From a virus, in the IMG/VR virus record IMGVR_UViG_3300045911_000580, positions 1 to 38,390 of that record: a DNA stretch of 38,390 nucleotides; one strand, 5' to 3'. Positions 1-3,332 of this stretch are shown here, piece by piece. The notes below the pieces were generated by a model. It worked only from the letters and a program-made list of their open reading frames with translations. It was not told where the DNA came from and made no database searches. The stretch's first letter is position 1. The number at the start of each line of letters is the position of its first letter. The translations under genes and the position numbers were made by a program.

Positions 1-127
1 CGCGATCCCCGCAAAGCGAGACGAGCGCGCCGTGCGGTGGCTCGGAGACCGCGGGCTGAGCGCGCTACGCATCACGCAGCTGGACTTGTGCCGCGTGCTG
101 CCGTGGGGGCTGCCGTGTCCGGCGTGG
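1..127. repeat. Terminal direct repeat, left copy (circular join)
   Basis: Bases 1-127 are identical to 38264-38390. An exact repeat of 127 bp at the two ends is what a short-read assembler leaves when it closes a circular or circularly permuted molecule with k=127, so the unit genome is 38,263 bp. The repeat lies inside the primase coding sequence, whose frame is preserved across the join, which supports circularity over a real terminal repeat. Confidence 0.93.
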
Positions 128-673
128 GCTGGCCGGCCCGCGCTCGAGGCCACCGAGGACAAGGCGGCCGTCGAAGCGCGACCGTGGTCGCGGTCCGCGT
201 ACCGATGCGTGTTCCCGATGTTCGACGCGTCGGGGGAGATGCGGTCGCTCCTCGCGCGCTACGTCGGTCGACCTCCATCGAACGAGCCGAGGCCCCACAA
301 GCGCGCTGCGCTCAAGAGCCGCGCCCCGCATGGCTTCGAGCGCCGGGGTCTGGTACTCGCGTGCCCGGCCGGAGTACGCCTCCTGCGCGGCGAAGCCCTG
401 GGTCCCGTGCGTGTCGTGATCAGCGAGGGCGAGATGGACCTGTGCTCCTGGGCGACCGCGGCGAAAGCGCCCGCGGGAGAGACGCTCGCGACGCTCGGCG
501 TGTTCGCGGGCGGGTGGACGGCTGCGCACGCGGCGCGGGTGCCGGACGGCGCGACGGTGGTGATCGCCACCCACCACGATGCGGGCGGCGAGGCCTACGC
601 GCGGCAGATCGTCGAGACGCTCGAGGCGCGGCGCGCGGCGGGCGTCCTTCGCATCAAGCGGTGGCAGCCATGA
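1..673 (+). CDS. DNA primase, C-terminal Toprim part (gene continues from 37827 across the join)
   Basis: This is the 3' part of a 369-residue primase that starts at GTG 37827 and crosses the circular join; base 1 is the third base of a codon. It carries a Toprim-like core: a glutamate motif SEGEMD, a glycine turn GVFAGG and a metal motif ATHHDAGGEAYA, where the first Asp of the usual DxD is replaced by His. The N-terminal part has a zinc ribbon. Together these fit a phage primase that lays RNA primers for genome replication. It ends with an ATGA overlap into the helicase-like gene, suggesting translational coupling and a primase-helicase pair. The family assignment rests on motifs and context; the exact subfamily is unknown. 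Confidence 0.8.
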   Translation, partial: AIPAKRDERAVRWLGDRGLSALRITQLDLCRVLPWGLPCPAWAGRPALEATEDKAAVEARPWSRSAYRCVFPMFDASGEMRSLLARYVGRPPSNEPRPHKRAALKSRAPHGFERRGLVLACPAGVRLLRGEALGPVRVVISEGEMDLCSWATAAKAPAGETLATLGVFAGGWTAAHAARVPDGATVVIATHHDAGGEAYARQIVETLEARRAAGVLRIKRWQP

Positions 674-2562
674 GCTCTCTCGACGCGAACGACCTGCTGA
701 TCGCAGGCAAGGACCTCGCCCCTGACGGCGCCGAGCTCGGCGAGCCGGCCAGCGCCATCGAGCTCGGGGAGCGGCCCACCATCGCAGTCACGACCGAGGA
801 GGGCGAGGTCAACGCCCAGGCCGCGCTGGCGCTCGCGCGCGACCGCACCCTCTTCGCCCGCTCGGGGGCCATCGTCCGCGTGCAGCTCGGTGGTGAGGCA
901 CCGACGATCGGCACGGTGCCAGAGGCGATCGTGCAAGAGCGCCTGGCGGTCAACGCGCGGTGGATCAAGCGCGTGGCGCGCACGACGAAGACAGGCGAGG
1001 TCGAGTGGACGGACGTGCCCGTGCACCCGCCCAGCTGGTGCGTGAAGGCCGTGGCTGCGCGCGGGCAGTGGGAGGGGATGCGGCAGCTGCACGGCATCGT
1101 CGAGACCGCGGTGCTGCGCCCCGACGGGACCGTGCTTTCCGCGCCCGGCTACGACGCGCGGAGCGGGCTGATGATGGTCGCCTCCACAAGCAGCTCGCCG
1201 GTGCCCGACCGGCCGACGGCGGCAGATGTCCGCGCTGCGCTCGAGCTGCTCCAAGACGTCGTGTGCGACGTGTGCTGGGCACGCCCGGCGCATCGCTCGA
1301 CGTGGCTCGCCGCGGTCCTCACCCCGCTCGCGAGGGCCGCCTTCGATGGCCCCGCGCCCCTCTTTCTCTTCGAGGCGACCGTCGCGGGATCGGGCAAGGG
1401 TCTGGCCCTCGACTGCGCTGTCCGGATCGCGACCGGTCGGCCGGCCGCGTTCGAGTCGTTCACGACCGACGAGCCCGAGCTGAAGAAGCAGATCGTGACC
1501 TGGGCGAGCTCGGGGCGGAGCGTCGTGGTCTTCGACGAGGTGAGCGGCCGGCTCGATGGCGCTGCGCTTCGGTCGGTGCTCACGGCGCCCTACATCACGG
1601 GCCGGCTGCTCGGTCAGTCGCGCGAGTGGGTAGGGCGCAACGCGATCACCTGGTACGCCACGGGCAACAACGTGGCGATCGGGCCGGAGATGTTCCGCCG
1701 CATCCTGCCGGCGCGCATCATCTCACCCGTCGAGAACCCCGAGACGCGGACCGGGTTCCGACACGCCGACCTGCGCGGCTACGTGAGCCAGCAGGCGCAC
1801 CGGCTGCGAGCCGCGGCGCTGACCATCCTGCGCGGGTACTGCGTCGCGGGGCGGCCCTCCATGGGGCTCTCGACGATGGGCTCGTTCGAGTCGTGGTCGG
1901 GGCTCGTGCGTGAGGCGATCGTCTGGGCGGGCTGGGAAGACCCGGCACTCGCGGTCGAAGCGCTCAAGGAGTCCGACGACCGGACGCCGAAGCTGCGCGC
2001 GCTCGCTGCTCAGTGGCTGCGCCTGCAGACCCAGCTCTACGCCCACGACAAGGGCGTCACGGCGAAGCAGGCCATCGACCACGTCGTCAAGGGGGGAGAC
2101 CCCGGACCCCTCCCCGAGATGCGCGAGCTGCTGCTCGACATCGCAAGCGACAAGAGCGGGACGGTCACGACGAAGACCCTCGGGTACCTCCTGCGAGGCC
2201 TGCACGAGCGCGTCTTCCTCACCGAGAGAGGCGAGGTACGTGTCGCGAGCTCGGGCACGGACCGGGTCGGCGCGAAGCTGTGGAGGGCAACGGTGCTCGG
2301 TGCAGGGGATGCAGGTGATGCAGGTGATGCAGGTGATGTTTCCTACGCGCGCGCGCACGCAACGGTGCTCGGTGCAGGTGATGCAGGGGATGCAGGTGAT
2401 GTTTCCTACGCGCGCGCGCACGCGAGCGGCGCTTCCTCTTCTTCCTCCTCTTCTTCTCTCTCTCACACGGACATAGAACATCCCCTGCATCACCTGCATC
2501 ACCTGCAGGGTGGAGGGGCGAAAGGTGACGACCCGTGGGCGGACGACGAGGGGCCGTTCTGA
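670..2562 (+). CDS. AAA+/SF3-like replicative helicase (ATPase)
   Basis: 630-residue protein starting at ATG 670, overlapping the primase stop (ATGA). A P-loop AGSGKG (Lys243), a Walker B VVVFDEV (Asp289, Glu290), a sensor-like ATGNN near residue 333 and a following RRILPAR arginine stretch mark an ATPase of the type found in phage and plasmid primase-helicases. The residue after the P-loop lysine is Gly, not Ser/Thr. Residues 1-200 are unrecognised; residues 360-530 are helical. The last 90 residues are low complexity: two copies of a GDAGDAGD...VSYARAHA repeat, a poly-Ser run and a His/Leu-rich segment, all produced by the DNA repeats of the candidate origin rather than by an evident protein fold. 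It probably unwinds the origin or fork. Other possibility: a plasmid-type Rep ATPase. Confidence 0.75.
   Translation: MSSLDANDLLIAGKDLAPDGAELGEPASAIELGERPTIAVTTEEGEVNAQAALALARDRTLFARSGAIVRVQLGGEAPTIGTVPEAIVQERLAVNARWIKRVARTTKTGEVEWTDVPVHPPSWCVKAVAARGQWEGMRQLHGIVETAVLRPDGTVLSAPGYDARSGLMMVASTSSSPVPDRPTAADVRAALELLQDVVCDVCWARPAHRSTWLAAVLTPLARAAFDGPAPLFLFEATVAGSGKGLALDCAVRIATGRPAAFESFTTDEPELKKQIVTWASSGRSVVVFDEVSGRLDGAALRSVLTAPYITGRLLGQSREWVGRNAITWYATGNNVAIGPEMFRRILPARIISPVENPETRTGFRHADLRGYVSQQAHRLRAAALTILRGYCVAGRPSMGLSTMGSFESWSGLVREAIVWAGWEDPALAVEALKESDDRTPKLRALAAQWLRLQTQLYAHDKGVTAKQAIDHVVKGGDPGPLPEMRELLLDIASDKSGTVTTKTLGYLLRGLHERVFLTERGEVRVASSGTDRVGAKLWRATVLGAGDAGDAGDAGDVSYARAHATVLGAGDAGDAGDVSYARAHASGASSSSSSSSLSHTDIEHPLHHLHHLQGGGAKGDDPWADDEGPF
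2287..2421 (+). repeat. Tandem 72/63-bp direct repeat containing 9-bp iterons
   Basis: Copy 1 (2287-2358, 72 bp) and copy 2 (2359-2421, 63 bp) begin with the same 18 bases (GCAACGGTGCTCGGTGCA) and end with the same TTTCCTACGCGCGCGCGCAC block. They differ by exactly one 9-bp unit. The middle of each is an array of GGKGATGCA: copy 1 has units at 2305-2313, 2314-2322, 2323-2331 and a partial at 2332-2338; copy 2 has 2377-2385, 2386-2394 and a partial at 2395-2401. The array is in frame with the helicase-like gene, and 9-bp gain or loss preserves the frame. Confidence 0.9.
2287..2508 (+). other. Candidate replication origin with direct and inverted iterons
   Basis: Seven direct copies or partial copies of the 9-mer GGKGATGCA lie at 2305-2401. 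The reverse-complement array is at 2479-2507 (CATCCCC, then TGCATCACC twice, then TGCA). Between them is an almost pure pyrimidine tract (2432-2463) that codes for a Ser run. Iterons inside the 3' half of a replication gene next to a strand-asymmetric tract is the design of the lambda origin inside gene O. Function is inferred from position and architecture. Confidence 0.5.
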
Positions 2563-3332
2563 TGGACCCGCGCAGACCGCACCATCCGTCTTCGAATGGC
2601 CAGCGCCGGGAGGATCCCGGTGAAGCCCCCCCCTCCAACAGTGTTCGAAGGGCCGATGGCCGCGAAGCCCCCCGAAAAGGTGGGGGTCCGTCGGCCAAAA
2701 CCCTGCAAAAAGAGGAAAAGCCCCGCGGTCGGCCCCGGATCGCTCCGCCAGAGATCGCGTCCGAGGGTCAGCGGCTGCTGCTGGAGCGTCCGGAGCCGGT
2801 TGGAGCCCTCGCGCGCCTCGTCGGGGTCGCGGAACAGCGCATCACGGACTGGCGATCGGGCAAGCGACCGCGGCCGGAGGCGGCGCGGAGGCTCCTCTCC
2901 GCCCTGAGCATCCCCGTGGAGGCGTGGACCAGGCCACCTGGGTCCCTCAGTGCGGCTTCGCGGGTCGTCGTGGAGCCGCCAGGGCGGCCGGCGGGACGCC
3001 CGTCGTCGCTCGAGGAGGTCGAGAGCATGCTCGACGAGCTCCGGACGCCCCGGCTGGGCCTCACGGACCGCGAGCAGCAGGACCGGCTAGCGCAGCGGGT
3101 GCGCCTCCTCGGTCTCAAGGCGAAGATCGAGTACCAGGAACGCCTCGTCGAGGACTCGATCGTGCGGTCTCACCCCCGGTGGGCGGAGATCCGGAGCGCC
3201 CTCCGGGAGGCGCTCGCCCCGCATCCGGCCGCGCTCGAGGCCGTGCGCACGCGGTTGGGTGCGCTGAAGGCGTGGGAGGACGCCTCGGCCCAGCTAGAGG
3301 CGCAGGAGGGCGACGAGGAGGGCGCACCGTGA
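2562..3332 (+). CDS. Terminase small subunit-like DNA-binding protein
   Basis: 256 residues from ATG 2562, which shares its A with the stop of the upstream gene (TGATG). Residues 1-65 are basic, Pro/Gly-rich and disordered-looking, with an AT-hook-like PRGRPR. Residues 78-121 look like a helix-turn-helix (ARLVGVAEQRITDWRSGKR followed by a helix). Residues 140-250 are charged and helical, consistent with oligomerisation. It overlaps the start of the large terminase (GTGA), so its role as the packaging-site recognition subunit is inferred mainly from position and the HTH. No in-frame ATG or GTG was seen between 2562 and the HTH, so the long N-terminus appears genuine. Alternative: a transcriptional regulator of late genes. 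Confidence 0.6.
   Translation: MDPRRPHHPSSNGQRREDPGEAPPSNSVRRADGREAPRKGGGPSAKTLQKEEKPRGRPRIAPPEIASEGQRLLLERPEPVGALARLVGVAEQRITDWRSGKRPRPEAARRLLSALSIPVEAWTRPPGSLSAASRVVVEPPGRPAGRPSSLEEVESMLDELRTPRLGLTDREQQDRLAQRVRLLGLKAKIEYQERLVEDSIVRSHPRWAEIRSALREALAPHPAALEAVRTRLGALKAWEDASAQLEAQEGDEEGAP
2651..2696 (+). other. Nested stem-loop in the 5' part of the small terminase gene
   Basis: GGCCGA (2651-2656) pairs with TCGGCC (2691-2696). Inside it CCCCC (2669-2673) pairs with GGGGG (2682-2686) around a CGAAAAGG-type loop. An A-rich stretch follows. Packaging (pac) sites often lie in or near the small terminase gene, so this is a candidate; an RNA structure affecting translation is equally possible. Confidence 0.3.

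Follow-up and report, generated by a model that had tools for sequence, protein, structure and literature searches.

In the Streptomyces plasmid pWTY27, replication in S. lividans was lost when the 300 bp directly downstream of repA were deleted, and it returned once this fragment was added back (PMC3583192). RepA binds the downstream element in gel shifts and footprints; its repeats consist of GTGGGAAC facing TTCCCAC, and the authors also proposed a hairpin (PMC3583192). Similarly, SaPI Rep and SCCmec Cch2 use their C-terminal domain on iterons just downstream of their own genes (PMC7581432), and pRN1 requires a 100-nt inverted-repeat stem-loop downstream of orf904, with a similar one present in the BIP-1 phage (PMC4234260).

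We analyzed an IMG/VR virus record, a linear contig of 38,390 bases that is referred to as a whole as the window. It encodes Mu-like portal and head genes as well as a terminase, and it starts near a Toprim ORF, so that other replication genes may be missing from it. An earlier note, made from the sequence alone, had proposed an iteron-type origin within a helicase-like gene, and the ORF in question (670–2562, +) indeed contains a repeat element near its 3′ end. Two observations support the proposal, namely the layout retained among relatives and the cis-required, initiator-bound locus of the pWTY27 homologue, whose RepA shares 29% identity with the window helicase over 450 aa (E 2e-44). Given this homology and the downstream origins of SaPI, SCC and pRN1, the element is most simply read as an origin serving its own helicase. 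As judged from sequence, it is very probably the phage's replication origin, with the surrounding D5/SF3-type helicase as the initiator. This reading is supported here by the anatomy of the element, the family-wide conservation of its layout and position and the predicted protein fold, and by the initiator binding and cis-requirement that others reported for the homologue.

The left half of the element is made up of a tandem duplication of 72/63 bp (Table 1). This repeat and its GGKGATGCA 9-mers had been pointed out in the earlier note; we mapped seven direct copies of the 9-mer versus three inverted ones, the two sets facing each other. Across the window, the GGKGATGCA pattern occurs 11 times (0.53 expected), with seven of these occurrences falling within the element, and a GGGGATG variant occupies copies at positions that do not mirror each other. 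With a score of 28, the facing arrays form the top-scoring inverted pair anywhere in the 38 kb; the best score in ten Markov shuffles of the full window was 17. The pyrimidine-rich tract between them, which was likewise noted before, spans 33 nt (2432–2464), whereas the runner-up homopurine/homopyrimidine run in the window is 15 nt long. The spacer also holds the lowest-GC 40-bp segments of the entire 38 kb (0.475 versus a mean of 0.72). Two iteron sets surround a low-GC spacer directly 3′ of the helicase fold, but they do so inside the ORF and not past its stop codon.

Table 1. Features of the repeat element and its gene neighbourhood (window coordinates), with array sequences from three relatives
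Feature	Position or source	Strand	Basis or remark
Toprim-domain ORF (probable primase partner) that is truncated by the contig end or begins close to it	32–673	+	PF13155, E 3.1e-05
Putative initiator helicase proper: N-terminal region, AAA+/SF3 (D5-type) core, C-terminal winged helix	670–2298	+	model, PDB fold matches, relatives' ends
First CAACGGTGCTCGG copy	2288–2300	+	precedes left array 1
Extra coding tail made by the putative origin DNA	2299–2562	+	no counterpart where the element of relatives is intergenic
Left iteron array 1, four TGCAGGKGA 9-mers	2301–2336	+	sequence
GTTTCC plus alternating purine/pyrimidine TACGCGCGCGCGCACG core, copy 1	2338–2361	+	GTTTCCTACGCGCGCGCGCACGC at 2338–2360
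Second CAACGGTGCTCGG copy, start of the 63-bp repeat (left half-site duplicated)	2360–2372	+	sequence
Left iteron array 2, three 9-mers	2373–2399	+	sequence
GTTTCC plus alternating core, copy 2	2401–2424	+	GTTTCCTACGCGCGCGCGCACGC at 2401–2423
Spacer: pyrimidine tract plus ACACGGACATAGAA	2432–2480	.	proposed unwinding region
Right iteron array, three inverted 9-mers toward the left arrays	2481–2507	-	sequence
Next gene (HTH protein), with the terminase large subunit just after it	2562–3332	+	ATG overlaps helicase stop (TGATG)
Relative's array AGTGGGTTT	Azospirillum megaplasmid prophage		just past stop
Relative's array AGGGGTTTC	Methylobacterium		just past stop
Relative's array GCGGGGTTT	Nonomuraea		just past stop

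The helicase ORF had no match in a Pfam search, and its PHROGs matches were families of unknown function plus one DNA polymerase/primase family. From 33 sequences we built an AlphaFold2 model (pLDDT 89.3), which was compared to the PDB by fold; no useful sequence relative was found there. The top matches were D5/E5-type helicases, AsfvPrimPol and the SaPI5 primase-helicase; with TM-scores of about 0.3–0.5, the predicted D5/SF3-type assignment applies at the superfamily level only, and a hexamer is putative. The modelled C-terminal helix-helix-three-strand unit (residues 482–542, pLDDT about 84–91) can be read as a winged helix, that is, a predicted DNA-binding domain. It ends at residue 543, corresponding to base 2298, three bases ahead of the first 9-mer. 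In the alignment, the relatives' proteins stop at or within about 25 residues of this point. The last 87 residues of the window protein, on the other hand, are the translated repeat element and a short stretch beyond it, and the translation matches the low-complexity tail described earlier (GDAGDAGD..., poly-Ser). The ORF closes with the acidic peptide GDDPWADDEGPF (2526–2559), which is not conserved in the other relatives with the element in the ORF.

A scan with the window helicase as a single protein found no close relative. Since an alignment of eight sequences was too diverged as a query, we used one of three sequences, and the scans yielded 53 viral and 35 genome loci. Pooling the scans with plasmid and phage records gave a tested set of 53 non-redundant loci (70% clusters) of ∼6 kb each, for which we asked whether the top ungapped inverted pair anywhere in the locus had its centre no more than 400 bp from the helicase stop. 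This was the case for 41 of 53 relatives, compared to 7.3 expected. For the remaining 12, the best pair was not at the annotated stop, and about a quarter of the loci were without a clear facing array there. In one of the 12 (L113), the best pair is located just beyond the end of the helicase match, and the reading frame is interrupted in the record. The giant-phage and TPWB-08 homologues (L017, L018) showed no facing arrays at the gene end. At three loci, facing arrays were present 0.7–1.9 kb downstream of the helicase stop (L087:4961–5079, L104:4711–4840, L111:5923–6040), as if genes had been inserted in between. A Methylobacterium contig (L106:886–1227) carries a near-perfect inverted repeat with 120-bp arms (score 111) that is unrelated to the element.

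Because the selection of arrays favours high-scoring pairs, the periodicity and symmetry figures apply to the detected elements only; among these, the commonest period was 9 (28 of 39 arrays), with arms mostly consisting of three 9-mers. Spacer GC was below that of the locus in 32 of 37 elements, and ACGCG came after the left array in 18 of 37 elements, against 3.2 in shuffles. A nested TGTCAG/TGACAG pair was found in 8–10 elements, with <1 expected; the spacers of L022, L023, L049, L079, L097, L103, L107 and L114 contain (A)CTGTCAG ... CTGACAGT(T) as an inverted pair, or one half of it. This pair is common to relatives with different 9-mers and may be the site of another protein. A further intergenic element was observed in the Streptomyces phage Henoccus (L021:1880–2150), where GGATAC direct repeats are followed by GGGTTCCTACGCGCGCGCGCAC and then by inverted GTATCC. 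Its GGGTTCCTACGCGCGCGCGCAC is nearly identical to the window core, with the same match in JackieB and Araceli, and no helicase gene adjoins it; possibly, this is an origin that shares the layout but uses a different initiator.

The sequence of the 9-mers varies between relatives while the facing layout persists. In plasmid relatives, facing arrays of other sequences lie just past the stop codon (examples in Table 1). In L034, which is among the closest relatives, GATGCAGG-type 9-mers as in the window begin right at the stop, and the right array is not recognisable. Overall, 9-mer similarity tracks helicase similarity (ρ = 0.50 for the core, 0.43 for the C-terminal domain). Once core similarity was accounted for, similarity of the C-terminal domain added no link to the 9-mers (partial 0.08, permutation p 0.07); covariation thus does not show that this domain recognises them. 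A search of IMG/VR for 9-mer triplets returned only unrelated coding repeats (Gly-Asp-Ala runs), indicating that the sequence of the 9-mer cannot by itself serve as a marker, and scanning for the pattern of GTGATGTTTCCTAC combined with an alternating tract gave zero matches. The earlier note had suggested that related phages would keep the DNA repeats while the protein tail diverged. The tails do diverge and the facing layout is kept, but the 9-mer sequence changes too.

At seven loci, namely the window and six relatives (L028, L059, L080, L081, L083, L084), the helicase ORF spans the element completely. In each of them, the start of another ORF (at least 60 aa) is no more than 14 bases away from the helicase stop, and stop and start overlap in the window (TGATG) as well as in L028, L080 and L084 (ATGA). 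We infer that the frame is probably kept open by translational coupling of the next gene through the origin, in which case the low-complexity tail would probably be a by-product of the DNA element. As starts close to the stop are also found at some loci with an intergenic element, the evidence for coupling is suggestive only. The idea that selection acts on DNA does not on its own explain why the ORF is open, for which coupling is the likelier reason. In L083 (4101–4240) and L084 (1820–1959), the ORF continues past the element into a shared Cys-containing segment (TFDG..N..C.DCG..L.C), which places the origin there between two coding stretches.

How such an element might fire can be outlined from its layout. 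By analogy with the described systems, the helicase that binds it is most likely the product of its own gene. The C-terminal winged helix would bind the 9-mers, and helicase rings could assemble on both facing arrays, pointing inward. The low-GC, pyrimidine-rich spacer would then melt and the rings would depart in opposite directions, giving bidirectional firing, with priming possibly supplied by the upstream Toprim primase or that of the host. The origin would lie directly 3′ of the sequence that encodes the folded protein, which is why it would normally follow the stop codon.

An alternative explanation is that a long hairpin is the essential feature, with the helicase assembling on extruded DNA and the repeats being incidental. 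The window strand can indeed fold into a long hairpin (z −5.6), and copies at mirror positions across the arms are slightly more alike than shuffled ones (0.929 versus 0.870), although this partly reflects shared array edges. A stem-loop origin has been proposed for pRN1, which needs the 100-nt stem-loop downstream of orf904; BIP-1 has a similar one (PMC4234260), and a hairpin was also suggested by the authors of the pWTY27 study (PMC3583192). Nevertheless, we consider this unlikely, since most relatives have arms composed of 9-mers in tandem, whereas a plain stem needs none. Moreover, variants of internal copies are mostly uncompensated across the arms, and the duplication of the left array in the window leaves one copy that cannot pair. 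Iterons are preferred, and a hairpin may contribute.

That the element is an operator for autoregulation or a partition site instead of an origin is very unlikely. Iterons often double in copy control, but the element is located at the 3′ end of the gene, away from the promoter, with a low-GC spacer between its arrays, and that of the pWTY27 homologue is required for replication. A secondary control role could still accompany the origin function. It is hardly credible that the repeats exist for the protein, as a low-complexity C-terminal linker or tail. The ORF is open across the element, all repeat units (9, 63 and 72 bp) are multiples of 3, and the acidic end DDPWADDEGPF is reminiscent of SSB C-terminal tips. 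However, relatives with the same DNA layout stop ahead of the element, the tails of those with the element in the ORF are unrelated, and protein selection cannot explain arrays that face each other, so this reading was rejected. A packaging site (pac/cos) for the terminase whose gene lies directly downstream would fit the next two genes, which encode an HTH protein, where a small terminase is usually found, and the terminase large subunit. This reading is extremely improbable and was likewise rejected, because the same element lies behind the helicase gene in Psychrobacter pA32H2 (6.5 kb, four genes) and M. nodulans pMNOD06, that of pWTY27 is a replication locus, and no terminase is annotated in the examined stretches of these three plasmids, nor are packaging genes in those of the first two.

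Taking the element as an origin, we show that a class known from a few plasmids recurs in dozens of unannotated phages and plasmids. Tentatively, these loci could represent a broad class of phage and plasmid origins, so far unannotated within the open-licence literature, which spans planctomycete-, alphaproteobacterial-, actinobacterial- and gammaproteobacterial-associated loci. Its members would share facing 9-mer triplets that drift with the helicase and a semi-conserved core (GTTTC, ACGCG, often a nested TGTCAG/TGACAG) that a second factor may recognise. One subgroup would have an initiator ORF that stays open through the origin, keeping the next gene translationally coupled. As a rule, facing 9-mer arrays just 3′ of the winged helix of a D5/SF3-type helicase would predict origins in uncultivated phages and cryptic plasmids. 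The loci also provide a natural set for studying the joint divergence of initiator helicases and iterons, and origins that double as coding sequence offer a test of DNA-level versus protein-level constraints on the same bases.

Among the known systems, pWTY27 resembles the window in its homologous helicase-type initiator and in facing arrays (8-mers) directly downstream of the gene. It differs in that its element lies past the stop codon and not inside the ORF, that it encodes a separate prim-pol RepB where the window has a Toprim primase, and that its repeats are unlike the window 9-mers in sequence and length. SaPI Rep and SCCmec Cch2 are also initiator helicases with a C-terminal domain, and the SaPI5 primase-helicase is a fold match of the window protein, but they belong to another helicase branch and their origin is not inside the ORF. 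pRN1 orf904 and BIP-1 combine an SF3 helicase carrying a winged helix with a downstream inverted-repeat origin of ∼100 bp that is variable in sequence and conserved in structure; however, this origin was described as a stem-loop and not as tandem iterons, and the prim-pol is fused to the helicase. The earlier note had likened the element to lambda ori, where iterons lie inside the initiator gene O beside an easily opened tract. The likeness holds for the position of the iterons within the coding sequence of the candidate initiator. It does not extend to the type of initiator, as lambda O is not a helicase whereas the window candidate is itself of the SF3 type, nor to the layout, as the tract in lambda is not flanked by two iteron arrays that face each other, and the two origins are not homologous. 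The real counterparts of the window element are the downstream origins of SF3 initiator helicases, as in pWTY27, SaPI, SCC and pRN1, and not lambda ori.
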